DNA from: Pseudomonas argentinensis
GTDB lineage: Bacteria; Pseudomonadota; Gammaproteobacteria; Pseudomonadales; Pseudomonadaceae
Reading direction: 5' to 3'
DNA length: 64,000 nt
NCBI RefSeq assembly: GCF_001839655.2
Contig: NZ_CP056087.1
Location: forward strand, 2,728,001 to 2,792,000
Part shown: piece by piece, positions 3,851 through 50,618 of the stretch
Numbering within the stretch: the stretch's first letter is position 1
Layout of the letters: every line of letters starts with the position of its first letter
Notes under the pieces: generated by a model
Seen by the model: only the letters and a program-made list of their open reading frames with translations
Database searches by the model: none
Told to the model about the DNA's origin: nothing
Program-made: the position numbers and the translations under genes

Positions 3851-3867
3851 CAGGTGGTGGCCGCCGC

Positions 3868-10010: not shown

Positions 10011-10643
10011 ATGGAATGTTCTCAACAGTCATTGCCAGCCTCGGGTCGAAGAGGGTTTCGGCCGTCCTTTGCCGCGAATGCATCTGCTTATCGCCGTGCC
10101 GCTGCCGCCATTGATCGCAAGGCGTTGCTGGCTGCCTATCAGGCTCAGCGTCATTCGTTGCTCAATGTGGCGACACGCATACTGGGCTGTCGCAGCAGAG
10201 CCGAAGATGTCCTGCAGGATGCCTTTCTCAAATTGTGGGAGGGCAACCTCAATCTTTCTCGGCTGGAGGCGCCCGAGCGCTACCTGAGTCGTCTGGTGCG
10301 CAATCTGGCCATCGATCATCTGCGCCGCTTGCAGCTGGAGCAGCGCTACGGAGCTGTCGCCGAGCTGGCGGATCTGCAGCCCTCGGAGATTTCCCCGGAG
10401 CAGGCGGTAGGCGGGCAGCAGGCGGTGCGCCGGTTGCTCGATGCCCTGGCCGAGCTGACCCCGCGCATGCGGCGAGTTTTCACCCTCAGTCGGTTGGATG
10501 GTCTCACCCAGCGCGAGGTGGCGACTCGACTGGGTGCGTCCCCGGCGCTTATCAATCTGATCTTGCGCGATACCCTGGGGCATTGCCGTGTTCGACTCGA
10601 CGGGCATTGCTCGCGTAACTGTCCCCTGACCAAGAGGTTGTGA
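10011..10643 (+). CDS. ECF sigma factor, iron-starvation type (PvdS/FecI-like)
   Basis: A 210-residue extracytoplasmic-function sigma factor. Region 2 carries RILGCRSRAEDVLQDAFLKLWEG and the -10-binding helix YLSRLVRNLAIDHLRR; region 4 carries LTPRMRRVFTLSRLDGLTQREVATRLGAS. The GCRSRAEDV motif is typical of PvdS and the iron-starvation group. It has about 35 extra residues before region 2 compared with PvdS, so the true start may be later, though no better start codon is obvious. The stop is immediately followed by the exporter ATG. No FecR-type anti-sigma gene is nearby, and the receptor gene downstream lacks a signalling domain, so control probably rests on Fur. Likely target: the iron-starvation-type promoter at 12405-12428. 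Confidence 0.9.
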   Translation: MECSQQSLPASGRRGFRPSFAANASAYRRAAAAIDRKALLAAYQAQRHSLLNVATRILGCRSRAEDVLQDAFLKLWEGNLNLSRLEAPERYLSRLVRNLAIDHLRRLQLEQRYGAVAELADLQPSEISPEQAVGGQQAVRRLLDALAELTPRMRRVFTLSRLDGLTQREVATRLGASPALINLILRDTLGHCRVRLDGHCSRNCPLTKRL

Positions 10644-12320
10644 ATGAAGCTGCTGCGTCTGGTTTTTCACGAATATCGCTGGTCCATCGCGCTGGTGCTG
10701 GGGCTTAGCCTGAGCAGCGCTTTGCTCAGCGTGGCGGTGATCGCCTTCATCAACCAGCGCATGCTCACGCCAGCGGGCAATCCGGGTGAGGCACTGGGGC
10801 AGTTCATCGCCTTGCTGGCGTTACTGCTGGTGCTGGCCTCGGCGGCGCAACTGTCACTGACGGCGCTGGGCCACCGTTTCGTCTACCGCATGCGGCGGGC
10901 CTTGGTGAAGCGGGTGCTGGACACCAGCATCGAACGCCTGGAGATCATCGGTGGCTCCAACCTCATCGCCAGCCTGTCGAGCGATATCCGCAACATCACC
11001 CTAGCCTTCGTGCATCTGCCCGAACTGATTTACGGCAGTGTCCTGACGCTGGCGGCATTCGCCTATCTGGCTTGGCTGTCGCCCGGCCTGTTCGTCACCA
11101 CGCTGCTTTGGATGAGCTTTACCCTCGGCGTCGGCTGGCTGCTGGTCGGTCGCCTCAATCACCACCTGCGCATGTTGCGTGAGTCCGAGGATCGACTCTA
11201 CGGGGATTACCAGGCAGTGATCGATGGGCGTAAGGAACTGACCCTCAACCGCGATCGCGCTCAGCGCCTATACGAAGACGAGTTCGACCTCAGCGCTCGC
11301 GCCTATCGCGATCACGTGACCCTGGCCGACCGTTACCACGGCCTTGCCAGCAACTGGGCCAACATCATGGTGCTGGGCACCATCGGCCTGGTGTTCTACC
11401 TGGCCAACGGTCTGGGATGGGCCTCCACAGCGGTGGCCTCGACCTATGCGCTGACCATTCTGTTCATGCGTACGCCGCTGGTCTCGGCAGTGGCAGCGAT
11501 CCCGGCACAGATCGCCGGTCGCGTGGCACTGGACAAGGTGGAATCGCTGGCGCTGGCGCCCCATGTGGAGGCCTTCAAGCACCCGGCCGACCCCTTGAGT
11601 GGCCAGTGGCAGGTGCTGGAGTTGCACGAGGTGGAGTATCGCTATCCGGCGCAGGACGGTGAGCCCGGCTTTGACGTGGGGCCGGTCAGCCTTCGCCTTG
11701 AACGCGGCGAGACGGTGTTTCTGGTCGGTGGCAACGGTAGCGGGAAGTCTACTCTGGCGCGTCTGCTGACGGGGTTGTACATCCCGCAGCGCGGCGAGAT
11801 CCGCGTCGACGGCCGGGTGATCGGAGCGCAGGAGTGGTCGGCCTACCGTCAGCTGTTCGCATCGGTGTTCACCGACTACCACCTGTTCTCGCAGCTGCTT
11901 GGCCCGCAGGGTGTGGCAGCGTCTGATGAAGAACTCGATCACTGGCTCGGCAGCTTGCACATGCGCCACAAGGTGCAGGTGGCGGCAGGGCGCTTGCGCG
12001 ACACGCGCCTGTCGGCCGGTCAGCGCAAGCGTTTGGCCCTGCTCCTGGCGCTGCTCGAAGCGCGCGATATCCTGCTACTCGACGAGTGGGCCGCCGATCA
12101 GGATCCGCTGTTTCGCCAGGTATTCTACCGCGAGCTGTTGCCGCAGTTGAAAGCCGCCGGCAAGACCGTATTCGCCATCAGTCACGACGACCACTACTTC
12201 GATCAGGCTGACCGCCTGCTGAAGATGGATAGTGGACAGCTCTATGAGTTGCAGGGCGAACATCGCGCCCGGGCCAGTCGCAACGCGCTACTGGAGATCG
12301 GTGGCGCCGCTCATTCCTGA
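10644..12320 (+). CDS. pvdE: Cyclic-peptide/siderophore-precursor ABC exporter, PvdE type
   Basis: A 558-residue half-transporter with fused membrane and ATPase parts. Six hydrophobic segments lie within about residues 10-290. The ATPase has Walker A GGNGSGKSTLA, signature LSAGQRKRLALL and Walker B ILLLDEWAADQDP. Size and order match PvdE and SyrD-like exporters that move acylated peptide precursors from cytoplasm to periplasm. Its ATG directly follows the sigma-factor stop, so it is co-transcribed with the Fur-controlled regulator. The acyl-peptide made by the NRPSs below is the expected cargo. No periplasmic acylase or PvdN/O/P-type maturation gene is present in the window. Confidence 0.9.
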   Translation: MKLLRLVFHEYRWSIALVLGLSLSSALLSVAVIAFINQRMLTPAGNPGEALGQFIALLALLLVLASAAQLSLTALGHRFVYRMRRALVKRVLDTSIERLEIIGGSNLIASLSSDIRNITLAFVHLPELIYGSVLTLAAFAYLAWLSPGLFVTTLLWMSFTLGVGWLLVGRLNHHLRMLRESEDRLYGDYQAVIDGRKELTLNRDRAQRLYEDEFDLSARAYRDHVTLADRYHGLASNWANIMVLGTIGLVFYLANGLGWASTAVASTYALTILFMRTPLVSAVAAIPAQIAGRVALDKVESLALAPHVEAFKHPADPLSGQWQVLELHEVEYRYPAQDGEPGFDVGPVSLRLERGETVFLVGGNGSGKSTLARLLTGLYIPQRGEIRVDGRVIGAQEWSAYRQLFASVFTDYHLFSQLLGPQGVAASDEELDHWLGSLHMRHKVQVAAGRLRDTRLSAGQRKRLALLLALLEARDILLLDEWAADQDPLFRQVFYRELLPQLKAAGKTVFAISHDDHYFDQADRLLKMDSGQLYELQGEHRARASRNALLEIGGAAHS

Positions 12321-12336
12321 ATAGTGTTGTCCTTGT

Positions 12337-12359
12337 TGCGCCCGCTTGATGCGGGCGCA
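12337..12359 (+). terminator. Hairpin after the exporter gene
   Basis: A 9-bp perfect stem, TGCGCCCGC and GCGGGCGCA with loop TTGAT, sits 16 bp after the stop. It lacks a clean T-run, so it is at best a weak terminator between the exporter and the monooxygenase gene. Confidence 0.45.
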
Positions 12360-12404
12360 GTTGTTGCTGCCGGAGTGATTTCACAGTCCGCAGGCAATTG
12401 CCCC

Positions 12405-12428
12405 TAAACATTCCTCTCCCTCGTTCGT
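12405..12428 (+). promoter_or_regulatory. Iron-starvation (PvdS-type) promoter box
   Basis: TAAAC (12405-12409), exactly 16 nt, then CGT (12426-12428), within CCCCTAAACATTCC. This matches the PvdS-dependent box TAAAT-N16-CGT with one change. It lies about 80 bp upstream of the monooxygenase and is a natural target for the ECF sigma factor encoded at 10011. Confidence 0.65.
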
Positions 12429-12432
12429 CAGT

Positions 12433-12450
12433 GTTAATGAGAATGTTTTC
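12433..12450 (+). promoter_or_regulatory. Possible Fur half-site beside the iron-starvation box
   Basis: GTTAATGAGAATGTTTTC contains AATGAGAATG, a frequent Fur-site core, immediately 3' of the iron-starvation box. The dyad partner is weak, so direct Fur control here is uncertain. Confidence 0.4.
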
Positions 12451-12505
12451 CAGTTCATTCCGGCTGGCGAACCGCCCATTCAGTACGCAGATATCGGGAG
12501 GATTT

Positions 12506-13822
12506 ATGGGGCTCGTTTACGACTATATCGGGGTTGGCTTCGGGCCCTCTAACTTGGCACTGGCCATCGCTACCGAAGAGTTCGCGCAGCGCAGTGGACG
12601 AGAGCCCAGCGTCTGCTTTATCGAGCGCAAGCCTTCATTCAACTGGCATGAAGGAATGCTGATCGACGGTTCGAGCATGCAGATATCCTTCCTCAAGGAT
12701 CTCGCCACGCTGCGCAATCCGGCCAGCCGTTTCACCTTCATCAGCTACCTCAAGGCATGCGGGCGCCTGGAGGACTTCATCAACCTGAATACCTTCTATC
12801 CCAGCCGCGAGGAGTTCAACGACTACCTCGGCTGGGCCGCCGATGCATTCGCCGGGCAGGTCCATTACGGCGAAGAGGTGACCAGCATCGAGCCGTTCTA
12901 CAGTGCCGGCGTATGTGCCGGCGTGGAGGTGGTTTCACGCGGTACGGACGGACAGAGCACGCGGCGCCGCGGGCGCAACCTGGTGCTGGGTATCGGCGGT
13001 GTGGCACAGATCCCGGCGGCCTTCGCCGGCCTGGCTGATCCACGCATCGTGCATTCCTCGCGCTACCTGGGCGTGCTCGATGCCTTGTTGGGCGATGGCA
13101 GTCCTCCACGTCGGGTCGCCGTCATCGGGGGTGGACAGAGCGCCGCGGAAATCTTCCATGATCTGGCGTGCCGCTTCCCGCAGGTCGAGGCCAGTCTTTT
13201 GATACGCGGCGGCAGCCTCAAACCCTCCGATGACAGCCCGTTCGTCAACGAGATATTCAATGCTGACTTCACCGACCGCATCTTCGCCCAAGGCCCTGAG
13301 CAGCGCGCGCGGATGCTGAGGGAGTACCGCAACACCAACTATTCGGTGGTCGATCTGGAGCTGATCGAGAAGATCTACCACCTGTTCTACCAGCAGAAGG
13401 TTCGCGGTCAGCACCCCCATCGTTTGCTCACCCATCGCGAAGTCATGGCCGTTGCCACCGACGACAACGGTGTGGAGTTGAGCCTGCGTAACACGGTGGG
13501 CGGCGATCAGCACAGCGAGCGATTCGATGTGGTGATCCTCGCCACCGGCTATCGCCGTGATTATCACCGCACCCTCCTGGAGGGCTTTGCCGACTACATC
13601 GAGGGCGATGCGGTCGACCGTCAGTACCGCTTGTCACTGCGTGCTGGCTGCCAGGCACAGATTTTCCTGCAAGGCAGCTGCGAGGGCAGCCACGGCCTCA
13701 GCGACACCCTGCTGTCGGTACTGGCCCTGCGTTCCGAGGAGTTGGTCACCTCGATGTTCGCGGAGCCCTCCGGCACGCAGGTGCGCGAGTCGCTGCGTCT
13801 GGCCGCGGCATCGCTCAGCTAA
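12506..13822 (+). CDS. pvdA: L-ornithine N5-monooxygenase (PvdA family)
   Basis: A 438-residue flavin-dependent N-hydroxylating monooxygenase that turns ornithine into N5-hydroxyornithine, the precursor of the hydroxamate ligands. The FAD motif GVGFGPSNLALA (about residues 9-20), the NADPH motif VAVIGGGQSAAE and the C-terminal ATGYRRD substrate motif are all present; length equals PvdA. ATG 12506 follows GGGAGGA by three bases; a longer frame upstream has no family sequence. Ornithine rather than lysine is inferred from the two N-hydroxyornithine-type adenylation domains and the acetyltransferase in the same locus. Its own iron-starvation-type promoter likely drives the synthetase genes that follow 88 bp later. 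Confidence 0.95.
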   Translation: MGLVYDYIGVGFGPSNLALAIATEEFAQRSGREPSVCFIERKPSFNWHEGMLIDGSSMQISFLKDLATLRNPASRFTFISYLKACGRLEDFINLNTFYPSREEFNDYLGWAADAFAGQVHYGEEVTSIEPFYSAGVCAGVEVVSRGTDGQSTRRRGRNLVLGIGGVAQIPAAFAGLADPRIVHSSRYLGVLDALLGDGSPPRRVAVIGGGQSAAEIFHDLACRFPQVEASLLIRGGSLKPSDDSPFVNEIFNADFTDRIFAQGPEQRARMLREYRNTNYSVVDLELIEKIYHLFYQQKVRGQHPHRLLTHREVMAVATDDNGVELSLRNTVGGDQHSERFDVVILATGYRRDYHRTLLEGFADYIEGDAVDRQYRLSLRAGCQAQIFLQGSCEGSHGLSDTLLSVLALRSEELVTSMFAEPSGTQVRESLRLAAASLS

Positions 13823-13910
13823 CCGACTGACGCAGGTTTTCCTACTTTCGCGAGCGGCTCGGCAGTCTTGCTAGGCCGTTGCGCAGGCACGAATTTTCAC
13901 GGGTGACAAG

Positions 13911-16900
13911 ATGAGATCGATGGTGGATCAGGCGCAGCACTTTGCCGACATTCTGGACTATCACGCCGAGCGCACGCCGGGCCGAGTGGCCATCCGGCAT
14001 ATCGTGGCGGATCAGGGCGAGCCACTATTGACGACTTATGGCGAACTGCGGGAGCAGGCGCTGGCCGTCGCCGGCCTGCTGCAGCAGCGCCTGGGCTGTC
14101 AGGCGGGGGAGCGTTGCGTGCTGATGCTGCCCAGTGGCGCCGAGTACGCTGCTACCTTCTTCGGTTGCCTGTACGCCGGTGTGATCGCGGTGCCGGCCTT
14201 CCCGCCGGAGAACAACCGGCAGATGCATATCGAGCGCCTCACCGGCATTCTGCTCGATGCCCAGCCCGCAGTGGTGCTGGCGCCGCGCGAGGTGATCCAG
14301 CGTTGCCAGGCGGATCTGCAGCCGCTGCTCGCGCCCGAGGCAAAGATGATCGCCATCGAGGATGTCGATGCCCACGACCGCGCTGGCTACCAGCCGCGTT
14401 TGATTACCAGCGATGCGCTGGCTTTCCTGCAATACACCTCGGGTTCCACCCGTGCGCCCAAGGGGGTAATGGTCAGCCACGCCAACCTGCTCGCTAACGA
14501 GCGCAGCATGAACCGGGGCTTCAAGGCCATTGAGGAGGAATCCTGGGTCAGCTGGCTGCCGCTGTACCACGACATGGGGCTGATGGCCGGGCTGCTGCTG
14601 CCGGTTCTGCACGGCGGTACCCTGACGCTGATGGCACCGAACTTCTTTCTCGCCAGGCCGGCGCGCTGGTTGCAGGCCATCAGCCAATACGGGGGCACTT
14701 TCTCCGGCGGGCCGGATTTTGCCTATCGCCTGTGCGCCGAGCGTGTGCCACAGAGCAGCCTGGAGACACTCGATCTGAGTAGCTGGCGTCTGGCGTTTTC
14801 TGGCTCCGAGCCTATCCGGTTGGACACTCTGCAGGCCTTCAGCCAGCGTTTCGCGGAGGTGGGTTTTCGTGCTCAGGCGCTGGCGCCGAGCTACGGATTG
14901 GCCGAAGCGACGCTCTATGTCTGCACCGACGCCGCTGAGCGCGAACCGCAGGTGGAGGCGTTCGCCAGCAAGACAGCTGGCCAGGCGGGTAGCCGCCTGC
15001 CGGCCTGTGGCTGGAGCGATGCGCAGCACCCGCTACGCATCGTCGAGCCGCAGACGCTGGAGGTGCTGGAGGATGATCAGGTCGGCGAAATCTGGGTTGC
15101 CGGGCCGAGCATCGCCCAGGGTTACTGGCGCAACCCTGAGGCGACTGCCGAGGCCTTCGTCGAGCGTGACGGCCGGCGCTGGCTGCGTACCGGCGACCTG
15201 GGCGTGGTGCGCGAGGGTCAGCTGTTCATCGCCGGGCGCCTGAAGGATCTGATCATTCTCAATGGTCAGAATTTCTACCCGCAGGACATCGAGCAGGCCC
15301 TGGAGCAGGACATCGAACTGCTGCGTCAGGGACGTACAGCCGCGTTCGCCGTTACTGACGAGCAGGGAATGGAGGGCGTTGGCCTGGCTCTGGAGGTCAG
15401 CCGCAACGTGCGCAAGCTGATCAGTGCCGAGATGATCTGCCAACGCATCGCCGATGGCATGGGTGAGCGCTTCCAGCTCGCGCCACAACTGATTCTGTTG
15501 CTCGAGCCAGGCGCCTTGCCGCGCACTACCAGCGGCAAGCTGCAGCGCTCGGCCTGTCGCAGCGGCTGGCAGAACGGCAGCCTGGCGATCTTCGCGCAGT
15601 GGTACAAGGGGCGCCTGCAAGGTGCTGATACGACGAATCCGCTGCCGCAAGCCAATGTCGTGCTGCCGCAGGTGCTGCAGGCCTGGCAGGAAGTGCTGGG
15701 CTGCACGGTGCTGGAGGAGGGCGACCACTTCTTCGCGCGCGGCGGCGACTCGGTGGGCGTGATGCAAGTGCTGGCGCGCCTCAACGCCGAGCTGGGGCTG
15801 GAGCTGCAGGCCGACAGCCTGTTCGAACGGCCGCGCCTGGGTGAATTCAGTGCCTGGGTCGCGGCGCAGCCGCGTACGGCCCGGCAGATGCCGCCACTGC
15901 AGGGCGAGGTGCGTGACGCGCAATGCGCGCAATCCTATGCGCAGCAGCGCCTGTGGTTTCTCGAGCGCTTGCAGGGGGATGCCAGCGCCTACCGGCTGGG
16001 CGGTGAACTGTGTTTCCGGGGCCGGCTCGACGAGGCGGCACTGCAGCGCAGCTTCGATGACCTGATCAGTCGCCACGAGAGCTTGCGCACGCGCTTCTCT
16101 GCTGGTGAAGAGGACGGCGTGCCGCTGCAGCGCATCGATCCGCCTTTTGCTGTCGATCTGGTGCGTTTCGATCTACGTGGCGAGGCGGATGGGGAGGCGG
16201 CACTGGCACGCCTGCGCGAGGCGCGGATGAACCTGCCGCTTGATCTGCAGCAAGGCCCCTTGTGGCATCTCGCCCTGGTGCGGGTAGGCGAGGCCGATCA
16301 TCGCCTGTTGCTGGTGATGCACCACATCATCTGCGACGGTTGGTCGATCCAGGTGCTGATTCGCGAGTTCGCCCAGCTCTACGCTGCCCATGTACTCGGC
16401 CAGGCGGCGAACCTGCCGGCGCTGCCCGTGCAGTACGCCGACTATGCGATCTGGCAGCGACGCTGGCTACTGGCGGGCGAGGGTGAGCGTCAGCTGACTT
16501 ATTGGAAGCAGCAGCTGGGCGATGAGCAGCCGTTGCTGCAACTGCCTGCCGACCATCCGCGCCCGGCGCGTCAGAGCCACCGGGGTGCGCGCCATGCCAT
16601 TCGTCTCGATGAGGCGCTGAGCCAGCGTCTGCACGCGTACGCTGCTGATCAGGGCGTCACTCTGTTCATGCTGCTGCTGGCCGCCTTCAAGGTGCAACTG
16701 CAGCGTTACAGCGGCCAGCGCGATATCCGCGTCGGCGTGCCCAGTGCCGGGCGCGTGTGCCGGGAGACCGAGGCGCTGATCGGCTTCTTCGTCAACACCC
16801 AGGTGTTGCGCAGCGAGTTCGGCGGCGAGCACAGCTTCGCCGATGTGGTGGCCCAAGCGCGGGCAGCGGCCCTCGGCGCGCAGGATCACCAATTGCTGCC

Positions 16901-19900
16901 CTTCGAGCAACTGGTCGAGGCGCTGGCGCCGCAGCGCAGCCTGAGCCACAACCCGCTGTTCCAGGTGAAGTTCACCCAGCAGTTCGCCTTGGCCCAGGAT
17001 CTGGCCCTACCCGGCGTAAGTCTCAGCGCGCGCCAGCTCGACGAGCAGGCCGCACACTTCGACCTGGGGCTGGATATTACCGACTTGCCCAAGGGTATCG
17101 AGGCTGCCTTCACCTATGCCCAGGATCTGTTCGACGCCGAGCGCATCAATGCATTGGCTGCCGATTTCGAGCAGCTGCTGGAGCAACTGCTGGCGCAGCC
17201 GCAAGCGCCGCTGGCCAGCCTGCAACTGACGGTACAGCCCTCGCAGGTGGTGGGCGTCGAGTGCAGGTTCGCCGCTGCGACGGTGCTCGATCTGTGGCAG
17301 CCGCATGTGCACGGCGAGGCCGTGGCTCTGATGCACGATGGCGTGCCCTGCAGTTTCGCCACGCTGGAAGCCCAGGCCAATCAGCTGGCACAGCATCTGC
17401 TCGCCCTAGGGGTGGCGCCGGAGCAGCGCGTCGCCCTGTGCCTGCAGCGTTCGCCGTCTTTCGTCATCGGCCTGCTGGCTGCGCTCAAGGTCGGGGCTGC
17501 CTTCGTGCCACTCGATCCGGCCTGGCCAGCGCAGCGCCAAGCGTTCGTCCTGGCCGACAGCGCCTGTGTGGCATTGCTCTGTGAATCCGTATCGGCGCAA
17601 TCCTTCGCCGGCCCGAAGCTGGACTTCAGCGCCGATGCGCCGTGGCGCCAGCAGCCCAGCGAGGCGCCAACGGTGCTGGTGCATCCGCTACAGGCAGCCT
17701 ATCTGATCTACACCTCCGGCACCACCGGCCAGCCCAAGGGCGCAGTGATCAGCCATGGGGCGCTGGCCGACTACGTACAGGGCATGCTCGAACAATTGGC
17801 TCTGGCGCCTGAGGCGAGCATGGCGATGGTGTCCACCGTTGCGGCCGACCTGGGCCATACCGTGCTGTTCGGCGCGCTGCTGTCCGGGCGTACCCTGCAC
17901 CTGCTGAGCGCGGAAACCGTGGCCGATGCCGATAACCTTGGGGATTACCTGACCACGCAGCAGGTCGGCATTCTCAAGATCGTACCCACCCATTTGGCTG
18001 GCCTGCTGCAGGCCGGCGCAGGTGAGCGGGCGATACCTGCGCATGCTCTGATCGTTGGTGGCGAAGCCCTGCCGGCCGAACTGGTGAAGGAGGTCAAGCG
18101 TCTGCGCCCGCAGTGCCGGCTGATCAACCACTATGGCCCCAGTGAAACCACGGTCGGCGTGCTGACTTACGAGGTCACGGACGTCGAGCTGGCAGCACTG
18201 GGCGGCGTGGTGCCGATTGGCCGGCCATTGCCCAACGTCCGCGCCCTGGTGCTGGACATGGCCCTGACGCCGCTGCCGCAGGGTGCGGTCGGCGAGCTGT
18301 ACCTGGGTGGGCCTGGCCTGGCACGCGGTTATCTCGATCGTCCGGGGCTGACGGCGGCGAGTTTCCTGCCCGATCCCTTCGCCAAGGGTGAGCGTCTTTA
18401 TCGCACCGGCGACCGTGCGCGCCTGCTGGCCGACGGGCGTATCGAGTTTCTCGGGCGCAGCGATGATCAGGTAAAGGTGCGCGGTTATCGCGTCGCCCTC
18501 GGCGAGATCGTGGCGCAGCTGCGCGGCCTGGCGGGCATCGCCGATGCCCATGTGCAGCTGGACGAACGTGGCCAGTTGCTCGCCTATGCGGTCGCGCAGG
18601 AGTCTTCTCTCGACCCCGCGCAGGTGCAGGCACAACTGGCCGAGCGCCTGCCGGATTACATGCTGCCGAGCCATGTGCTGCTGCTCGAACGCTTCCCGCT
18701 GACCGCCAATGGCAAGCTCGATCGTCAGGCGCTGCCGCAACCGCAGGCGGCAGAGCAGGGTTTCGAGGCGCCGCACGAGGGCATCGAGACGCAACTGGCA
18801 GCGCTCTGGCAGCAGGTGCTGAAGGTCGAGCACGTCGGTCGGCACGACAACTTCTTCACCCTTGGCGGCGACTCCATCCTCAGTCTGCAGATCATCGCCC
18901 GGGCGCGGCGCCAGGGCATTCGCCTGACGCCCAAGCAACTGTTCGAGAAACAGAGCATTGCTGAGCTGGCGCAGGTCGCCGTAGTTGCAGAGACGCCGGT
19001 GGCACCCGCAAGTGCCAGCGCAGAGGTGACGCACAGCTTCGCCCTGACGCCGATCCAGGCGCGCTTCTTCGCCCAGCCTCCGGCGCGCATCGGCCACTGG
19101 AACCAGGCTTTGCTGCTGGCGGCGGACGAGCCGCTCGACGCTCGTGCGCTGGCTGAGGCACTGCAGGCCGTGGTGCGTCATCACGCCAGCCTGCGCCTGA
19201 GTTTTCAGCAGGACACGCAGGGCAACTGGCAGCAGCGCTATCGTGGTGCGCAGCCGGCGCAGGAGCTGCTGTGGGTCTGTCAGGTGGCCGCCGCCGATGA
19301 CCTGCCGGCGCTGTGCGACGAAGCCCAGCGCAGCCTGGATATCGAGCGCGGCCCGCTGCTGCGCGCGGTACTGGCCCAGTTGCCGGACGGGCGCAATCGC
19401 CTGATGCTGGCTGTTCACCATCTGGCGGTCGATGGTGTGTCCTGGCGCGTGCTGCTCGACGATCTGCAGCAGGCCTATGCGCAGCGACTGGCCGGAGAGA
19501 CGATTAGTCTCGCGGCCGTTGCGACCAGCTTCCAGCAATGGTCGGCGCATCTGCAGACCCTGGCGGGCAGCCCGCAGCTGGCAGCACAACTGGAGTACTG
19601 GCAGGGTTTCAGCGCCGCCGCAGCCTGTCTGCCCTGCGAACGGCCCGAAGGCAGCGCCAAGGTCGCCGATGCCGGCCAATTGCATCTGACGCTCGACGCT
19701 ACCTCCACTGCGCGCCTGCTCGGCGAAGTGCCAGCGGCCTACCGCACGCAGATCAACGATGTGCTGCTGGCGGCGTTGGCCCAGGCCTTATGGCAGTGGA
19801 GCGGTCGCCGGCGCACGGTGATCAGCCTGGAGGGCCATGGCCGCGAGGAAGATCGGCTCGATCTGAGCCGCACGCTGGGCTGGTTCACAAGCCTGTACCC

Positions 19901-41071: not shown

Positions 41072-41160
41072 TGACGGCTGTTTCAAGATTGCCAATCAAA
41101 TCGATCAGTGCATGGTCCATCTACCGCGATAGTGGCAGAGTAATTTCAAATTGCCTGCTA

Positions 41161-41180
41161 AATGATAAAAGTTACTATTC
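41161..41180 (+). promoter_or_regulatory. Candidate Fur box upstream of the siderophore receptor
   Basis: AATGATAAAAGTTACTATTC is an AT-rich dyad (AATGATAA against TTACTATT, 6 of 8 positions complementary) inside a GC-rich genome. It lies about 80 bp before the receptor gene, which therefore probably has its own iron-controlled promoter. Confidence 0.5.
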
Positions 41181-41260
41181 AGTTTTGCGTTCATATTGGT
41201 TAGGCTAGCCAGCGTTTTCTTGACGGGCCAGCGGATTGGCTGGCGGTATCGGGGGAGAGG

Positions 41261-43453: not shown

Positions 43454-43475
43454 GCGGCAACCGAGCGGGCAAACC

Positions 43476-43505
43476 AAGGCGAGGGGGATACCCTTCGCCT
43501 TTTTG
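43476..43505 (+). terminator. Rho-independent terminator after the receptor gene
   Basis: AAGGCGAGGG pairs with CCCTTCGCCTT (one bulge) around GATA, followed by TTT. It separates the receptor from the permease gene, whose start is only about 20 bp further on. Confidence 0.7.
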
Positions 43506-43523
43506 CATATATAAGGACAACGG

Positions 43524-45560
43524 ATGACGAGTTTGAGTCGCCCAGGGCAACCAGCTGCTATGCGCGGGTTCGGTCACGCTGGCCTGGCGCTGCTGGGGCT
43601 CGCGCTGCTGTTGGGCATGCTGCTGTGGCAGGGCGTGTTGCGCCACCCCTCGCCAACAGCCGAGGCCTGGTTGGCGCCGCTGTCTTCAACGCCGTCGCTC
43701 GACGGCCTGCTGCTGTGGTGGATCCAGCTGCCACGCGCCTTTGCCGGGGTCGTGGTTGGCGCCTGTCTGGGCGTTTCCGGGGCGATCATGCAGTTGATCA
43801 CGCGCAACCCGCTGGTGTCGCCGGATCTGCTGGGCATCACCGCCGGGGCGCAACTGGGCGTTATCCTCGGCATGCTCCTGCCTGGCGCCTTGGGTTTGCC
43901 GTTGATCTTCGTCGGCGGGTTGCTGGCGGCGCTGTTTACCTTCCTCATGGCCGGCGGCTGGAACACTTCACCACTACGTCTGACCCTGGCCGGCGTGGCG
44001 GTGGGGCAGACCTTTGCCGCGTTGATCGCGTTGTTTCTCAGCCTCAACGACCAGGCCGCGATGGTGGTATCGCTGTGGAATACCGGTTCGCTGCAGCAGT
44101 TGGGCTGGGGCGCGATGCATCCGGCGCTGTATCTGTTACCGCTGATTGCCCTGGCGCTGCTGGTGCTGATGCGCCCGATGAACCTGGCCGTGCTGGGCGA
44201 CGGGCAGATGCGCTCGTTGGGTCTTTCGCCGGCCTGGCTGAAAGGGCTGAGCATTGCTTTGGGTAGCCTGCTGGCGGCGCTGGCCATTCATCTGGCCGGG
44301 CCGCTGGGCTTTATCGGGTTGATCACGCCGAATCTGCTGCGCTTTGCCTTCGCTGTGGTGCGGCCTTCCCGATTGATCCCCTTGTGCGCGATCTGGGGGG
44401 CACTGCTGACGGTACTCGCCGATGCGCTGGTAGCGGCGGTGGAGCCCTGGTTCCAGCTGCCGCTGGGGGTGCTGTCGGCCATTCTCGGTTCGGCGGCGAT
44501 TCTCTTGCTGCTGCGCTACGGGCGCAGCGCGCCGGTGGCGGCGGTCACGGCGAGCATGCCGGGCGAGAGCCGGGCCATGCGCCTGCCACTTTGGTCATTC
44601 GTCGTGCTCTCCGTGCTGGTCTGCCTGGTGCTGCTGGTAGGGGGCACGGCGCAGGGCGAGTCGGGCGTCTGGGCATTCTGGCAGCGGGTGTGGGCCAGTG
44701 AGCCCATGGCCTTGACCCTGCTCGATCTGCGCTTGCCGCGCCTGCTGGTGGATATGGCCGCCGGGGCACTGCTGGCAACCGCCGGCATGTTGTTGCAGGC
44801 GGTCACGCGCAACCCGCTGGCCGGCCCGGAAATTCTCGGGGTAAGCCAGATGGCGGCCCTGGTGGTCCTGCTGGCACTGATCTTCATGCCCGAGCTCGCG
44901 GTAGCCTGGCGCTTCCCGCTGGCCTGGCTGGGCGCCGGCCTGGCGCTGGTGGTCGTCATCGGCCTCAACCTGCGCCATGGCCTCGAGCCGTTGCGCGTGA
45001 CGCTCACCGGTTTTGCCATCAGCGGTGTGGTGCTGGCCCTGGTGAGCCTGCTGATGGCGCAGTTCACCAGCAATATCGCCCAGGCGCTGATCTGGATGGT
45101 GGGCAGCAGTTACGGGCGTACCTGGGGCGATCTGCAGGCCATGTTGCCATGGCTGGTGATCGGGTTGGCGCTTTGCGCGGCGACCACGCGCTGGATGGAC
45201 CTGCTGCAGTTGGGTGAGGGCGTAGCCAGCAGTCTCGGTTTGTCGGTACCGAGCCGCAGGGTATTGCTTATCGTGCTGGCCAGCGCATTGATTGCGGCGG
45301 CGGTGGCGGTGGTTGGGCCAGTGGCGTTCATTGGTTTGCTGGTGCCCCATGGCGTGCGTCTGCTGGGTTTTCATCGTGCCCGTCAACGCCTGCTGGCGGC
45401 GCCACTACTGGGCGCGACCCTGCTGGCCTCGGCCGATTTGCTCGGGCGCGTGCTACTGGCGCCACTGGATATCCCGCTGGGGATCGCCACGGCCGCCATC
45501 GGTGCGCCGTTGTTTCTACTGTTGCTCAGTCGTGTCTATTTCAGTGACAAAAGGAGCTAG
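43524..45560 (+). CDS. fhuB: Fused FecCD/FhuB-type siderophore permease
   Basis: 678 residues composed of two homologous FecCD halves (about 1-335 and 345-678), each with around ten membrane helices. Both halves repeat the family motif: TRNPLVSPDLLGI in the first and TRNPLAGPEILGV in the second, and GPLGFIGLITPNLLR against GPVAFIGLLVPHGVR. Only FhuB-type hydroxamate importers are commonly fused this way, so inner-membrane uptake of an intact ferric-hydroxamate-containing siderophore is expected. AAGGA lies 6-7 bases before ATG 43524. The binding-protein gene starts 4 bp after the stop; the ATPase is encoded separately at 49851 on the other strand. Confidence 0.93.
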   Translation: MTSLSRPGQPAAMRGFGHAGLALLGLALLLGMLLWQGVLRHPSPTAEAWLAPLSSTPSLDGLLLWWIQLPRAFAGVVVGACLGVSGAIMQLITRNPLVSPDLLGITAGAQLGVILGMLLPGALGLPLIFVGGLLAALFTFLMAGGWNTSPLRLTLAGVAVGQTFAALIALFLSLNDQAAMVVSLWNTGSLQQLGWGAMHPALYLLPLIALALLVLMRPMNLAVLGDGQMRSLGLSPAWLKGLSIALGSLLAALAIHLAGPLGFIGLITPNLLRFAFAVVRPSRLIPLCAIWGALLTVLADALVAAVEPWFQLPLGVLSAILGSAAILLLLRYGRSAPVAAVTASMPGESRAMRLPLWSFVVLSVLVCLVLLVGGTAQGESGVWAFWQRVWASEPMALTLLDLRLPRLLVDMAAGALLATAGMLLQAVTRNPLAGPEILGVSQMAALVVLLALIFMPELAVAWRFPLAWLGAGLALVVVIGLNLRHGLEPLRVTLTGFAISGVVLALVSLLMAQFTSNIAQALIWMVGSSYGRTWGDLQAMLPWLVIGLALCAATTRWMDLLQLGEGVASSLGLSVPSRRVLLIVLASALIAAAVAVVGPVAFIGLLVPHGVRLLGFHRARQRLLAAPLLGATLLASADLLGRVLLAPLDIPLGIATAAIGAPLFLLLLSRVYFSDKRS

Positions 45561-45564
45561 CGCG

Positions 45565-46485
45565 GTGGCGATGCTGCGTCTTTTCTGTGGGGCGTTGCTG
45601 CTCTGTCTGGCGCAGGGCGCCTTGGCGGCCGATGCGCAACTGGTGGCCCGGCAGTCGGCCGGCGTTGGAGATGCGCCGCAGCGGATCGTCAGCCTCGATG
45701 AGCTGAGCACCGAGCTGCTGGTGTCGCTGGGGATCGAGCCGGTTGGGGTGGCCAACCTGGCCAGCTACCGCCGCTATATCGGTATCGGCAACGACCTGCT
45801 CGAGCGCAGCATGGCGCTGGGCAGCGCGCAGCAGCCCAATCTGGAGGCCATCGCCCGGCTCAAGCCGGATCTGATCGTCGGCGTGGCCTACCTGCACCTG
45901 CCGTTGTTCGAGCGTCTCGACGGCCTGGCGCCGACCCTGATCTATCAGGTGTCGCTGGCATCGGCTGGCTATGACGGCGTGGCCATTGGCGAGGTCATGC
46001 TGGAGCATCTCGGGCGCCTGACCGGACGCCAAGAGCGTGCTGCTGCAGTGATCCGCGAGGGCCGGCAGGCGCTGGCTGCCGCGCGTCAGGCCGTTCGCGA
46101 GCGAGACCTGCAGGGCGAGCCGGTGGCCGTGCTCTATCCGCTGGTGCAGCAGGGCAGTTTCATTGCCCTCAACCAGCAGGCACTGATTGGCAGCCTGATG
46201 AACCGCCTGGAGGTACGCTCGCCCTGGACCCTGCGTTCCGCACACAGTTTGCATCGGCGCATCGATATGCGCACCTTTGCCAGCGAGCCGGGGCTGCGCG
46301 TGCTGTTCATCGGTGGGCAGGAGCAGGCGCCGTTCTTCGCAAGCCCCCTGTGGAAGGCCCTGCCAGTCGCCCAGCAGCGGCGTTACGCCTTTCTTCCCAC
46401 GCCGTACTGGACCTTTGGTGGCCCGCGCTCGACGGCCGCCATCGCGACCCAGGTGCGCGAGGCGATCAAGGCAATGAATCGTTGA
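45565..46485 (+). CDS. fhuD: Periplasmic ferric-siderophore-binding protein, FhuD-like
   Basis: 306 residues with a signal peptide (MLRLFCGALLLCLAQGALA, cleavage near residue 22) and a BtuF/FhuD class III binding fold: QRIVSLDELSTELLVSLGIEPVGVA, then LEAIARLKPDLIVG. GTG 45565 is preferred because AAGGAG lies 8 bases upstream; ATG 45571 is two codons later. It would pass the ferric siderophore to the FhuB-like permease. There is no lipobox cysteine near the cleavage site, so a free periplasmic protein is expected. Confidence 0.9.
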   Translation: MAMLRLFCGALLLCLAQGALAADAQLVARQSAGVGDAPQRIVSLDELSTELLVSLGIEPVGVANLASYRRYIGIGNDLLERSMALGSAQQPNLEAIARLKPDLIVGVAYLHLPLFERLDGLAPTLIYQVSLASAGYDGVAIGEVMLEHLGRLTGRQERAAAVIREGRQALAAARQAVRERDLQGEPVAVLYPLVQQGSFIALNQQALIGSLMNRLEVRSPWTLRSAHSLHRRIDMRTFASEPGLRVLFIGGQEQAPFFASPLWKALPVAQQRRYAFLPTPYWTFGGPRSTAAIATQVREAIKAMNR

Positions 46486-46572
46486 ATTTTGTCTTTGGCC
46501 ATTCGTCCTTTAAGAGGACCCTGGCGACCATCGGTATTGGCCAGGGCAAGCCACTTTCACAGAGGTCATAGC

Positions 46573-46773
46573 ATGAGCTTCGACAACGACAACGCGCGCT
46601 TTCTGGTCGTGATCAATCATGAGCAGCAGTATTCCATCTGGCCCGAGTACAAGATCATTCCCGAAGGCTGGTCCGCGGTGGGCGTGTCTGGCGACAAGGC
46701 GGCCTGTCTGGCTCATATCGAAGAGGTGTGGACCGACATGCGCCCGCTGAGCCTGCGCCAGGCCATGGCGTGA
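46573..46773 (+). CDS. mbtH: MbtH-family NRPS accessory protein
   Basis: A 66-residue protein that binds and activates adenylation domains. Family residues are clear: [19 protein letters not shown] and the end [14 protein letters not shown]. The start at 46573 follows an AGAGG five bases upstream. It lies 87 bp after fhuD and 22 bp before the beta-hydroxylase, and is the only MbtH gene seen, so it probably serves both synthetases. Confidence 0.96.
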
Positions 46774-46795
46774 ACAGCGACCTGCGGGGACCGCG

Positions 46796-47785
46796 ATGAT
46801 GAATCAAGTGACCGATCTGACGCATGTCGCCCTGAGCATCGAAGCCGGCCTGCCGATGCGCGTCAGCCCGCTGCAGGCCGGGCAGAGCTTGCGCGAGCAT
46901 ATGCCGGCCCTGCAGCAGCTGGTGGCCGAGCATCTCGAAGTGAGCGGCGGTCTGCTGTTCAGTGGCTTCGCCAATGCCGATGTGGCGGGCTTTCAGCAGT
47001 TTGCCGGCGCATTCGGCCATCCGCTGCTGAGCTACGAGTTTGGCTCCACGCCGCGTAGTCGGGTAAGTTCGGGTGGGGTGTATACCTCCACCGAGTTTCC
47101 TGCCCATCGACCGATTCCGCTGCATAACGAGCAGGCTTACACCACCGAATGGCCGTTGCGCATCTGGTTCTATTGCGCCCAGGCGGCCGAACAGGGGGGC
47201 GAGACGCCGATCGCCGACAGCCGTGAAGTGTTCCGGCGTATCGACCCAGCCATCCGCCAACGTTTCGCCGAACGCGGCCTGCTTTATGTGCGCAATTACG
47301 GCAATGGGCTGGATCTGCCCTGGCAGCAGGTCTTCAATACCGAAGATCGACAGGTAGTCGAGCGTTACTGCAGCGCCCGTCGCATTGATCTCGAGTGGAT
47401 CGGCGATGATGAGCTGCGCACGCGCCAGCTGTGCCAAGGCGTCGCCCAGCATCCGCGTACCCGTGACTGGGTCTGGTTCAACCAGGCGCACCTGTTTCAC
47501 CTGTCGGCCCTGGATATCGATACCCAGGAGGTATTGATCGACGCGGTCGGCCTCGAGGGGCTGCCGCGCAACGTGTATTTTGGGGACGGGACGCCCATCG
47601 AGGCAAGTCTGCTGGACGAGGTGCGTGGCGTGCTGGACGCCTGCACCATCCGTTTCCCTTGGCGCGACGGCGATATCCTGATGCTCGACAACATGCTCAC
47701 GGCCCACGCACGCGATCCCTTCAACGGGCCGCGCAAGGTGGTGGTGGCGATGGCCGAGGCCTATGGCCAAGAGGGCTTCCAATGA
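46796..47785 (+). CDS. Stand-alone SyrP-like aspartyl beta-hydroxylase (Fe(II)/2-oxoglutarate)
   Basis: 329 residues of the TauD/TfdA superfamily. The iron ligands are seen as H110-N-E112 (PLHNEQAYT, the HxE form found in SyrP) and distal H304 (NMLTAHARDPF), with the 2-oxoglutarate arginine at R313 (GPRKVVVAM). SyrP-type enzymes hydroxylate the beta carbon of Asp while it is held on an NRPS carrier; the only Asp module here is the first of NRPS 1. The product, beta-hydroxyaspartate, is a bidentate Fe(III) ligand. The stop overlaps the acetyltransferase ATG by 4 bp. Being stand-alone, it belongs to the class reported to give the L-erythro isomer before any epimerisation. Confidence 0.88.
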   Translation: MMNQVTDLTHVALSIEAGLPMRVSPLQAGQSLREHMPALQQLVAEHLEVSGGLLFSGFANADVAGFQQFAGAFGHPLLSYEFGSTPRSRVSSGGVYTSTEFPAHRPIPLHNEQAYTTEWPLRIWFYCAQAAEQGGETPIADSREVFRRIDPAIRQRFAERGLLYVRNYGNGLDLPWQQVFNTEDRQVVERYCSARRIDLEWIGDDELRTRQLCQGVAQHPRTRDWVWFNQAHLFHLSALDIDTQEVLIDAVGLEGLPRNVYFGDGTPIEASLLDEVRGVLDACTIRFPWRDGDILMLDNMLTAHARDPFNGPRKVVVAMAEAYGQEGFQ

Positions 47786-48768
47786 ACGTGTTACCACTGC
47801 CTGACGGGCGCGTGCTGCAAGGCGAGTCGCGCGAATCGACGATCTGGCTGAGATGCGACGGCCGACCGCTGATGCAACTGCGTACCAGCGAGGCCAACAT
47901 CGTGCAGGTGCTGGAAGTGGCTACGGCCGATCTGGCCGATGCCCTGTGGTGCGCCAGCTATTGGTGGTTCGCCGCTCATCCGCAGGCGCCAGGTCTACTG
48001 TGGCAGGGGCTGGATCAGCAGGCTGTGCAACCCTGTGGCGACTGGTTGCGTAAAGACGCCGGCACGCAAAGCACGCTGGTCGAGCGCAGCGTGTTCTGGC
48101 AGTTGCCGCAGCCCTGGCTGCGCCAGGCGTCGCCGCCTTATCCGCAGCAAATGGTGATGAGTGACGGCAAGCGTCATCCGCGGCGCCGGGTCAAGCCCCA
48201 GGGCGAGGTGTACCGGCGCTTCGATGCGCGGTTGGGCGCCTGGATATCCCTGCGTACGCTGGACATGGAGCAGGACCTGGAGCGCTTCAATCGCTGGCAG
48301 AACACGCCGCGGGTCCTGCATTTCTGGCAGGAAGGCGGAGATCTGGCACAGCACCGTAGCTATCTCGAGACCATCGCTGCCGATCCGCATGTGTATAGCC
48401 TGATAGGCTGCTTCGACGACCAGCCCTTCGCCTACTTCGAGCTCTACTGGGCCAAGGAAGATCGCATCGCGCCTTTCTATTCTGTGGACAACCATGATCG
48501 TGGCATTCACATGCTGGTGGGTGAGCAGGCACATCGCGGGCCGCACAAGGTGGCTAGCTGGCTGGCGGCGCTGACCCATTACGCCTTTCTCGACGATCCG
48601 CGTACAAACCTGGTGGTAGCCGAGCCACGTGCCGACAACGCGAAGATGATTGGCTACATGCAAACGCTGGGTTACTACCGGGAAAAGGAATTCGATTTTC
48701 CTCACAAGCGCGCCGCGCTGATGGCGATTGGGCGCGAGCGTTTTTTCGATAGCGGGGTATTGTGTTGA
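47782..48768 (+). CDS. N5-hydroxyornithine acetyltransferase, IucB/AlcB-type GNAT
   Basis: 328 residues: an N-terminal non-catalytic half and a C-terminal GNAT domain. The family pattern is visible in LERFNRWQNTPRVLHFWQE, PFAYFELYWAKEDRI, DRGIHMLVGE and the acetyl-CoA pyrophosphate region near RGPHKVASWLAAL. Relatives (IucB, RhbD, AlcB) acylate N-hydroxylated diamines in hydroxamate siderophores. Together with the ornithine monooxygenase this predicts N5-acetyl-N5-hydroxyornithine, in contrast to the formyl group put on by PvdF in classical pyoverdines. Start overlaps the beta-hydroxylase stop (ATGA). The acyl donor could be other than acetyl-CoA. Confidence 0.85.
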   Translation: MNVLPLPDGRVLQGESRESTIWLRCDGRPLMQLRTSEANIVQVLEVATADLADALWCASYWWFAAHPQAPGLLWQGLDQQAVQPCGDWLRKDAGTQSTLVERSVFWQLPQPWLRQASPPYPQQMVMSDGKRHPRRRVKPQGEVYRRFDARLGAWISLRTLDMEQDLERFNRWQNTPRVLHFWQEGGDLAQHRSYLETIAADPHVYSLIGCFDDQPFAYFELYWAKEDRIAPFYSVDNHDRGIHMLVGEQAHRGPHKVASWLAALTHYAFLDDPRTNLVVAEPRADNAKMIGYMQTLGYYREKEFDFPHKRAALMAIGRERFFDSGVLC

Positions 48769-48789
48769 GCGCACCCGGAATCGCTCAGG

Positions 48790-49530
48790 ATGATTGAGGC
48801 ACTGGCGCCGCTGTTCATCGGCGATTTCTCCTCGTATCGGGACACCCTGGTGTTGCACGATGACCCAAGGCCCTCGGTGCCGTTGCGCGAACTGCTCAGC
48901 GCCGAGGGCCTGCCGGCGCTGTTGGCGCGCTTCGGTGAGGCGTACGCAGACGGTGACCGCCGCGCGCTGCTTTCGCAGTGGTCGAAGCATTATTTCGTAC
49001 GCCTGATCCCGCCGGTGGTGGCTGCCGCACTGGTGCTGAATCGGCGCCTGCCGCTAGATCTTGATGACATTGAGGTGGTGCTCGATGAGGAGCACCTGCC
49101 ACAAGCGTTCAAACTGCGCCACGCGGGCGGGTCTTTCGCCCCTGACGATCCGTTCGAGCGTTTCGCTCATCTCCAGCACGATCACTTGGCACCCCTGATC
49201 CAGGCATTCACCGCGCAGGTGAAGATCGCTCCGAAAGTGTTGTGGAGCAACGCTGGCAATTATTTCGAGTGGATCCTGACCGCGCTTGGCAAGGTGCTGC
49301 CGGCACCAATGCTGGCCGATGGTTTCAGCCTTCTGCAGGCGACACTGCAGCCTGATGGCGGCCGCAACCCGTTGTATCAGCCGGTGCGTTATGTCGAGCT
49401 GCAGGGCGCTGCATTGCCCTGGCGGCAACGGCGGGTGTGCTGCATTCGCTATCTGCTGCCCGAGCTCGAGCTATGCGAGAACTGCCCCTTGCTGGACGAG
49501 CCCCCCGTTGCTGGCGATAGCTTGGATTGA
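48790..49530 (+). CDS. fhuF: Ferric-siderophore reductase, FhuF-like
   Basis: 246 residues. The C terminus carries the [2Fe-2S] pattern of FhuF: C217-C218, then C229 and C232 (CCIRYLLPELELCENC). FhuF-type proteins reduce Fe(III)-hydroxamates in the cytoplasm to release iron. With fhuB and fhuD this says the siderophore enters the cytoplasm, unlike pyoverdine, whose iron is removed in the periplasm. It starts 21 bp after the acetyltransferase stop and is probably the last gene of that operon. A MITE-like element follows. Confidence 0.9.
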   Translation: MIEALAPLFIGDFSSYRDTLVLHDDPRPSVPLRELLSAEGLPALLARFGEAYADGDRRALLSQWSKHYFVRLIPPVVAAALVLNRRLPLDLDDIEVVLDEEHLPQAFKLRHAGGSFAPDDPFERFAHLQHDHLAPLIQAFTAQVKIAPKVLWSNAGNYFEWILTALGKVLPAPMLADGFSLLQATLQPDGGRNPLYQPVRYVELQGAALPWRQRRVCCIRYLLPELELCENCPLLDEPPVAGDSLD

Positions 49531-49583
49531 GTCTGCAGTTGCAGGCCGTGATTTGACGCGTTGGCGGGGCTTGGGCAGTTTGC

Positions 49584-49854
49584 CTAGGGTCTGTTGACGT
49601 TTCACGCACGGCCGCGCCGGAGCCCGGTTTGTCGCGAGGCAAGGCACGAGCCGCGAAGTTTAGTGGGCTAAATGAGCCGGCGAGAAACGCCGCATCGCGA
49701 CAAAACGGGCCCGGCCCTGCGGGTTGCGCGAGAAATCTCGCCATGCGTTGTTGGAGGACTTGGCAAGGGAACAACCATTCCCTGCGTCCTCCGCCTAGCC
49801 TGGCGAGATTTCTCGCGGCAACGCGGCTCGCGCTGAAACGTCAACAGACCCTAG
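49584..49854. mobile_element. MITE-like element with terminal and nested inverted repeats
   Basis: About 271 bp bounded by 21-bp perfect terminal inverted repeats (49584-49604 starting CTAGGGTCTGTTGACG, and 49834-49854). Inside are two further hairpins: 49622-49637 with 49695-49710 (15 of 16) and 49728-49743 with 49801-49816 (16 of 16). The second encloses GGAGGAC/GTCCTCC and AGGGA/TCCCT. No transposase is encoded. The right end supplies the stop codon of the fhuC-like gene. It could be mobilised in trans and could act as a bidirectional terminator between fhuF and fhuC. Confidence 0.75.
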
Positions 49855-50618
49855 TGCAGATAGCTGATCGGTGAACCGTCCATCGGGTTGGCCATTACGC
49901 CCATGGGCACACCATAGATGCGCTCTAGCGTTTCGCTGTGCATCAGTTCGGCCGGGCTGCCCTGGGCTAGCAGGCGGCCACTGCGCAAGGCCAGCAGGTG
50001 GTCGCAATAGCGTGCGGCCATGTTGATGTCGTGCAGCACCACCAGCACACCCAGGCCCAGCTCCTGGCTAAGTTCTCTGACGCGCGAGAGGACTTCCACC
50101 TGGTGAGCGATGTCCAGCGCCGAAGTGGGTTCGTCAAGCAACAGATAGCGGGTGTTCTGTGCTAGCAACATGGCCAGCCAGACACGCTGGCGCTCGCCTC
50201 CCGACAGTTGATCGACCAGGCGCCCGGCGAAAGCAGCGGTATGGGTCAGCTCCATGGCACGCTCGATATGCGCCCGGTCCTCGCTGCCCAGGCGACCAAG
50301 GGCGCCGTGCCAGGGGTAGCGACCGAAGCCCACCAGCTCACTTACTGTGAGGCCCTCGGTCTGAGGCGAATGTTGCGGCAGGTAGGCAACTTGCCTGGCG
50401 AAATCGCGTTGCCCCCAGGCCGACAATGGCTGGCCATCGAGACGAATGATCCCCATGCTGGGTTGCTGCTGGCGAGCGAGCAATTTGATCAGGGTCGACT
50501 TGCCCGAACCGTTATGGCCAATCAGGCCGATCATGCGGCCGGAGGGAAGGCTCAGGCTAAGGGGGTGCAGCAGAGTACGCCCAGCAACGCTGAAGCTGGC
50601 GCTTTCCAATTCAAACAT
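49851..50618 (-). CDS. fhuC: Ferric-siderophore import ATPase, FhuC/FecE-like
   Basis: A 255-residue ABC ATPase: Walker A GHNGSGKSTLI, Q-loop YLPQHSP, signature LSGGERQRVWLAMLL, Walker B YLLLDEPTSALD and switch HD. It completes the FhuB/FhuD importer encoded on the opposite strand. Its TAG stop lies within the outermost four bases of the repeat at 49584-49854, so insertion of that element may have changed the C terminus (now ...GSPISYLH). A Fur-like site lies about 50-70 bp upstream, so it has its own iron-controlled promoter. Confidence 0.93.
   Translation of the reverse strand: MFELESASFSVAGRTLLHPLSLSLPSGRMIGLIGHNGSGKSTLIKLLARQQQPSMGIIRLDGQPLSAWGQRDFARQVAYLPQHSPQTEGLTVSELVGFGRYPWHGALGRLGSEDRAHIERAMELTHTAAFAGRLVDQLSGGERQRVWLAMLLAQNTRYLLLDEPTSALDIAHQVEVLSRVRELSQELGLGVLVVLHDINMAARYCDHLLALRSGRLLAQGSPAELMHSETLERIYGVPMGVMANPMDGSPISYLH

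Follow-up and report, generated by a model that had tools for sequence, protein, structure and literature searches.

The DNA analysed here (the window) is a stretch of 64,000 nucleotides from Pseudomonas argentinensis, taken from a genome of 5.08 Mb in a single contig (G000:C1:2728001-2792000). Between positions 10011 and 50618 it carries a siderophore cluster in which predicted genes for biosynthesis, export, uptake and reduction are all present, and which is built around two nonribosomal peptide synthetases (NRPS1 and NRPS2). The genes that a first-pass annotation of the sequence had placed here are long open frames where it had put them, each with a Pfam or NCBIfam family match; the NCBIfam models for FhuD, FhuC and the monooxygenase were matched below their cut-offs. 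Two changes were made: a gene for an MbtH-like protein was added and one gene start was moved, as described below. Apart from the FhuC-type gene, all genes of the cluster lie on the plus strand.

NRPS1 (13911..23579, 3222 aa) has the layout FAAL-T / C1-A1(Asp)-T-E1 / C2-A2(Dab)-T, and NRPS2 (23576..39574, 5332 aa) the layout C3-A3(Ser)-T-E3 / C4-A4(OHOrn)-T / C5-A5(Ser)-T / C6-A6(OHOrn)-T-E6-TE, where FAAL stands for fatty-acyl-AMP ligase, C for condensation, A for adenylation, T for carrier, E for epimerisation and TE for thioesterase, and Dab and OHOrn for diaminobutyrate and hydroxyornithine. Both frames are uninterrupted, with one terminal stop each. A domain search gave nine condensation-family domains. 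Position, motif and pairwise identity divide these into six C domains and three E domains, so that no interface-type domain is left over. In a further scan, for which NRPS2 was taken as two halves, the seven AMP-binding domains comprise one N-terminal FAAL and six amino-acid A domains; the carrier domains also number seven, and a thioesterase stands at the end. The FAAL region covers residues about 12-558 of NRPS1; the NCBIfam FAAL models, with the whole protein scored, stayed below cut-off.

The specificity codes of the A domains were read by eye from the translation and checked by alignment: DLTKIGHVG for A1, DIWELTADD for A2, DVWHVSLID for A3 and A5, and DGEACAGVT for A4 and A6. In a wider alignment, Y rather than C stands at position 299 of A4 and A6, at a site where gap placement is uncertain. 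By the position rules and substrate labels for such codes, we take the six domains to select Asp, Dab, Ser, OHOrn, Ser and OHOrn. With these labels, the FAAL start and the order of the six modules are those expected of a marinobactin cluster. In the alignment, M. nanhaiticus and a P. lutea-type NRPS1 have the same codes as A1 and A2, and proteins of P. lutea and P. abietaniphila the same codes as A3 and A5. For A4 and A6 the code is the one found in Marinobacter BGYM27 and E. mendocina; P. lutea and P. abietaniphila deviate from it at one of the nine positions. Liquid chromatography-mass spectrometry showed that the type strains of these two Pseudomonas species make formomarinobactin (PMC13037486). 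Since the A3/A5 codes are equal and the A4/A6 codes nearly equal to those of formomarinobactin-making species, the substrate labels gain support.

The E-type domains with the HHxxxDG motif sit in modules 1, 3 and 6. C2 and C4, both placed after E domains, are 40.6% identical to each other and 28-32% to the other C domains, and C1, C3, C5 and C6 share 50-62% among themselves. C2 and C4 thus form their own subtype, which fits the expectation if they take D-configured donors. E domains and C-domain types therefore agree with D residues at positions 1, 3 and 6, as expected for a marinobactin cluster.

The genes for supply and tailoring of the residues flank the synthetases. A diaminobutyrate-2-oxoglutarate transaminase (39564..40985, 473 aa), matched above cut-off by NCBIfam NF005393, is the predicted source of L-Dab. 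A TauD/TfdA dioxygenase (46796..47785, 329 aa; Pfam TauD, no NCBIfam match at 1e-10) is the predicted aspartyl beta-hydroxylase and is 68-83% identical to the TauD proteins of related stretches in two same-genus genomes (G133 and G182), a Pseudomonas metagenome-assembled genome (G199) and Marinobacter. The putative L-ornithine N5-monooxygenase (12506..13822) matches Pfam Lys_Orn_oxgnase with 382 bits. Its sole NCBIfam match is the histamine N-monooxygenase model, at 174 bits against a cut-off of 700, and ornithine as its substrate is for this reason predicted from context. The open frame runs from a TTG at 12398, which the first-pass annotation had taken as the start; most likely the gene begins at 12506, where homology begins. 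Both hydroxylase genes expected in a marinobactin biosynthetic cluster can thus be read here, with predicted activities. The added MbtH-like NRPS partner (46573..46773, 66 aa; Pfam MbtH, 83.4 bits) has a counterpart, read by eye, at the matching place in the Marinobacter stretch L112.

The acyl group on the hydroxamates can be judged by gene content. A GNAT acyltransferase (47782..48768; Pfam Acetyltransf_8, no NCBIfam match at 1e-10) is the predicted N5-hydroxyornithine acetyltransferase; by sequence, its best solved relative is the SidF N5-hydroxyornithine transacylase (E 1.9e-49). We searched 11 genomes with this protein and with the formyltransferase of G182: our own, the same-genus G133, six of P. 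lutea type (same-genus genomes at 62-63% identity in the FAAL region) and the genomes of the loci L001, L002 and L003. These three loci were the ones taken from 80 that a scan with generic peptide patterns gave, many of the hits being unrelated NRPSs. GNAT was found in four (our own, G133, that of L001 and Marinobacter BGYM27) and a PvdF-type formyltransferase in the remaining seven (the six P. lutea-type genomes and P. schmalbachii); the two never co-occur. In our own genome three candidates for a PvdF/FmbJ homologue were scored and none was significant. The combination of GNAT present and PvdF absent, which serves as a criterion in PMC13037486, argues for marinobactin rather than formomarinobactin, as the first-pass annotation had predicted with its acetylated residues. 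A formylated product of identical six-residue order, that is formomarinobactin as in the P. lutea group, would suit a synthetase layout that is shared and codes that are almost identical. It is largely refuted by the lack of PvdF/FmbJ, which 6/6 sampled P. lutea-type genomes and P. schmalbachii possess, and by a GNAT that those seven genomes are without; we regard it as very improbable and rejected the assignment to fmb. At position 278 of the OHOrn code, the window shares A with E. mendocina and Marinobacter, and P. lutea and P. abietaniphila have S. This difference was considered as an acetyl/formyl marker and rejected, because the formyl-type P. schmalbachii (L003) and the synthetase P0049 also carry A.

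The genes for regulation and transport complete the cluster. An FmbA-like extracytoplasmic function (ECF) sigma factor (10011..10643, 210 aa; Pfam Sigma70_r2/r4) is followed by an ABC transporter of the cyclic-peptide-exporter type (10644..12320, 558 aa; NCBIfam TIGR01194 and NF007813 above cut-off), which we take to be PvdE-like. Sigma-factor homologues of 48-74% identity stand directly 5' of the exporter gene in L114 (G133), L110 (Marinobacter BGYM27), L107 (G182), L003 and L001, and the exporter is 69-89% identical to its counterparts in related loci. The FhuA-like TonB-dependent ferric-siderophore receptor (41261..43453, 730 aa; family matches) has homologues of 54-76% in the G133, G199, G182 and Marinobacter stretches. 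The first-pass annotation had noted an importer of FhuBCD type and a FhuF reductase at the locus, and genes with the corresponding family matches are found: a FhuB-type permease (43524..45560, 678 aa; NF007872 above cut-off), a FhuD-like periplasmic binding protein (45292..46485; Pfam Peripla_BP_2, FhuD model 85 bits with a cut-off of 252), a FhuF siderophore-iron reductase (48790..49530, 246 aa; TIGR03951 above cut-off) and a FhuC-type ATPase on the minus strand (49851..50618, 255 aa; Pfam ABC_tran, FhuC model 401 bits, just under the cut-off of 433). The FhuD-like frame overlaps fhuB, and its true start probably lies near 45550.

Read as a complete cluster that covers biosynthesis, export, uptake and reduction, the locus very probably encodes a marinobactin-type suite with the predicted structure fatty acyl - D-(beta-OH)Asp - L-Dab - D-Ser - L-(N-acetyl-N-OH)Orn - L-Ser - D-(N-acetyl-N-OH)Orn. 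This is the acyl hexapeptide that the first-pass annotation had derived from module order, epimerase placement, A-domain codes and tailoring genes, and all of these hold in domain scans, codes and alignments. In the mechanism we propose, the FAAL domain would activate fatty acids as acyl-AMP and load the first carrier, and modules 1 to 6 would add Asp, Dab, Ser, OHOrn, Ser and OHOrn in turn. Asp would be beta-hydroxylated by the TauD enzyme, Orn would be turned into a hydroxamate by the flavin monooxygenase together with the GNAT enzyme, and the E domains of modules 1, 3 and 6 would set the D-configuration. The thioesterase would free the product as a linear acid, which the ABC protein may export; the ferric complex would be imported via the FhuA-like receptor and FhuBCD, and the iron reduced by FhuF. 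Enzyme activities, acetyl donor, configuration of the hydroxyaspartate (OHAsp), tail lengths, iron regulation and production itself are what we infer from the genes.

Several points weigh against this assignment. The product is predicted from its genes, and the acetyl donor from homology, at 52% identity to the Marinobacter enzyme. The A-domain codes do not separate acetyl from formyl, as a DGEACAGVT-type code also occurs in the formyl-type P. schmalbachii (L003). Searches of the window with a 19-mer Fur box (up to three mismatches) and an exact PvdS box, both consensus sequences, gave no match. Finally, the prediction of the Asp stereochemistry is unsafe because of the bokeelamides of E. khazarica, where an Asp module equipped with an E domain, together with a TauD hydroxylase, yielded L-erythro and not D-threo (PMC11574851). 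E. khazarica belongs to the nearest named genus, and its deviation speaks for a product of marinobactin order with a changed detail, such as L-erythro or another beta-OH-Asp, another hydroxamate acyl group or another range of tails; the tail range does vary within the type, with C10-C14 in formomarinobactin and C12-C18 in marinobactins (PMC13037486). Since the tailoring enzymes align with those of Marinobacter along their length, we consider such a change unlikely.

A product from another family of acylated hydroxamate peptides would share some of the same building parts. Aquachelin and loihichelin have an acyl-activating start, OHAsp, Ser and OHOrn. The bokeelamides have these parts in common as well, and are encoded by five modules with no Dab (PMC11574851). 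Here six modules are found with Dab in second place, and among the 120 best of 2295 hits the named full-length NRPS1 relatives above 55% identity belong to Ectopseudomonas, Pseudomonas and Marinobacter. We therefore rejected the identity with bokeelamide and hold membership in any such other family to be the least probable of the readings weighed here.

NRPS2 of the marinobactin-type cluster shows a further feature. In a self-BLAST at the DNA level, the tract 24215..26669 of module 3 is 88.9% identical to 31769-34211 of module 5, and the tract 29416..31102 of module 4 is 92.6% identical to 35677-37363 of module 6, all on the plus strand. The comparison drew on the 120 best hits (2295 listed) of the search made with NRPS1, not with NRPS2, of which 29 are proteins of 5000-5700 aa. 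Judged by the first three code positions, 20 of these 29 show Ser-OHOrn-Ser-OHOrn and nine do not; most of the 20 are of P. lutea type, and with the window protein 21 synthetases were compared. Within 20 of them, A3 and A5 are 90.1-97.2% and A4 and A6 91.0-96.2% identical, whereas C3 and C5 share 53.5-63.1% and C4 and C6 23.2-28.4%. The pair C3/C5 is a fair control and C4/C6 a poor one, since C4 and C6 differ in subtype. In P0058 the script placed the C5 anchor wrongly. The exception is P0026, with 67.7% and 42.9% for its A pairs and 50.4% and 46.8% for its C pairs.

Between three lineages, with one representative each, identity at the same position is 62-73% for A domains and 58-66% for C3 or C5. 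Within the three representatives C3 and C5 are 55-62% identical, which is close to the figure between lineages; the module duplication is thus about as old as the lineage split. That the A domains look young despite an old duplication points to their concerted evolution. Identity becomes high some 120-180 residues ahead of the A3 motif of the domain and drops about 360 after it, near the carrier domain. In a tree of the 21 synthetases, 14 of the A3/A5 pairs and six of the A4/A6 pairs are strict sisters, compared with one of 21 for each C pair. As not all A pairs are strict sisters, conversion would be episodic relative to speciation. Position 278 of the OHOrn code has the same residue in A4 and A6 of each synthetase except for the outlier P0026, which fits co-editing.

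We consider it likely that NRPS2 is under concerted evolution, in which intragenic gene conversion keeps the Ser pair and the OHOrn pair of A domains near-identical in at least three lineages (Ectopseudomonas, the P. lutea group and Marinobacter). The tracts would run from the C-A boundary, or from a point inside C3/C5, to the vicinity of the carrier; substrate choice would thereby be co-edited, with C domains and E-specific carrier types remaining distinct. An alternative to gene conversion is that duplication or replacement took place repeatedly in each lineage. The general phenomenon of such A-domain evolution is already known (PMC9205934). A literature search on the combined terms gave only this paper, and the paired-A-domain result in synthetases of this layout was not found in print. 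With paired A domains homogenised and C domains not, these synthetases offer a natural record of the NRPS boundaries that tolerate exchange.

The first-pass annotation had proposed that an amphiphilic siderophore of this kind might act in place of, or besides, pyoverdine. Genome-wide, 12 condensation-domain matches were found, nine in the cluster and three in a pyochelin-like locus, so that none remain for a pyoverdine assembly line. The cluster therefore stands in place of pyoverdine, and a pyoverdine alongside it was rejected, as its NRPS set was not found in the genome. The pyochelin-like locus (C1:2516774-2528747, minus strand; positions 775-12748 of L116, which is G000:C1:2516000-2535000) encodes a protein of 2152 aa, with an N-terminal carrier followed twice by cyclisation-type C, A and carrier domains, and a second of 1841 aa with cyclisation-type C, A, methyltransferase, carrier and TE domains. 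Pyochelin has two cyclisation domains, compared with three here. Relatives of the locus are at 77-87%, and the named ones are all Pseudomonas. Elsewhere in the genome lie two proteins of the penicillin-amidase family, L081 (G000:C1:754730-756943) and L082 (G000:C1:1886638-1888968). Among solved structures they are related to D-succinylase and to penicillin, glutaryl or cephalosporin acylases; neither list of relatives at E 1e-20 (37 and 11 rows) contains a molecule named PvdQ, and a tail-removing acylase is not claimed.

The nearest named relatives of the cluster belong to Ectopseudomonas (mendocina/oleovorans group). NRPS1 is 93% identical to E. chengduensis (120 best of 2295), NRPS2 88.5% to an E. 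mendocina protein and the TonB receptor 89% to E. toyotomiensis. More distant are M. nanhaiticus (60.6% in NRPS1), Marinobacter BGYM27 (59.4% in NRPS2) and the P. lutea-type synthetases (63-64%). When 199 same-genus genomes, sampled from a larger group, were searched with the FAAL region, eight (our own included) scored above 870 bits. The next-best score of 664 bits fell in an open frame of 4356 aa, and from their size we take these longer FAAL-matching proteins to be of PvdL type. The order of the accessory genes is common to Marinobacter BGYM27 and G133 (two contigs, with the middle of NRPS2 unseen in G133), and this recurrence argues against chance as an explanation of the cluster. Homology and gene order are thus shared with a Marinobacter cluster, as expected for the marinobactin type; the order is also kept in G182, minus FhuB, FhuD and FhuC. 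A deeper GNAT-type lineage was observed in L001/L115 (the metagenome-assembled G199), where NRPS1 is 58% identical to that of the window and the accessory genes lie on another contig.

Awaya and DuBois (2008) are cited in the literature on the predicted marinobactin clusters of Ectopseudomonas, including that of P. mendocina ymp. Whether the cluster had been described was left open by the first-pass annotation; a marinobactin-type cluster of this kind is already in print for the mendocina/oleovorans group (PMC13037486, PMC10165715), and this genome is a further example. Girard (2023) reported it from the oryzihabitans and P. oleovorans groups and described it as identical with the P. mendocina ymp cluster (PMC10165715), and Grosse et al. 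(2026) linked a cluster type with GNAT and its own Dab synthesis to E. mendocina ymp; they give the structure of the P. mendocina ymp siderophore as not elucidated (PMC13037486). Marinobactins were found by mass spectrometry in Terasakiispira after genome mining (PMC12971057; MIBiG BGC0003173). Our literature searches turned up no structure for any such cluster in Ectopseudomonas, and one would close a small gap.

Outside the cluster, a plus-strand frame of 890 aa with no Pfam match overlaps a long minus-strand frame of 791 aa at 3427-6243 of the window, and an EarP rhamnosyltransferase gene followed by that of elongation factor P lies at 61392-63135.

Compared with known systems, no difference was found to the predicted marinobactin clusters of Ectopseudomonas, including P. 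mendocina ymp, in a comparison that stopped short of gene-by-gene coordinates. The bokeelamides (bka) of E. khazarica, from the nearest named genus, are likewise acylated hydroxamate/OHAsp siderophores, and apart from the module number and the missing Dab their terminal OHOrn is cyclised, unlike that of the product predicted here (PMC11574851). The formomarinobactin clusters (fmbA-K) of the P. lutea group have the same synthetase layout, nearly the same codes and their own Dab aminotransferase, but carry the PvdF formyltransferase where the window has GNAT; in the formomarinobactin-type stretch of G182 (L107-L109) no FhuB, FhuD or FhuC match was obtained at E 1e-15. At that same threshold the Dab aminotransferase of the window has no match in the Marinobacter stretch L110-L112. 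The comparison with Marinobacter synthetases that the first-pass annotation had suggested bore out its proposal: in Marinobacter (BGYM27, which is known here from its genes, and NRPS1 of M. nanhaiticus) the C, A and E motifs of both synthetases are spaced as in the window, at 59-61% identity, and in BGYM27 the codes of A4 and A6 are equal and those of A3 and A5 one residue apart, and the accessory genes follow in the same order, with FhuBCD and FhuF.

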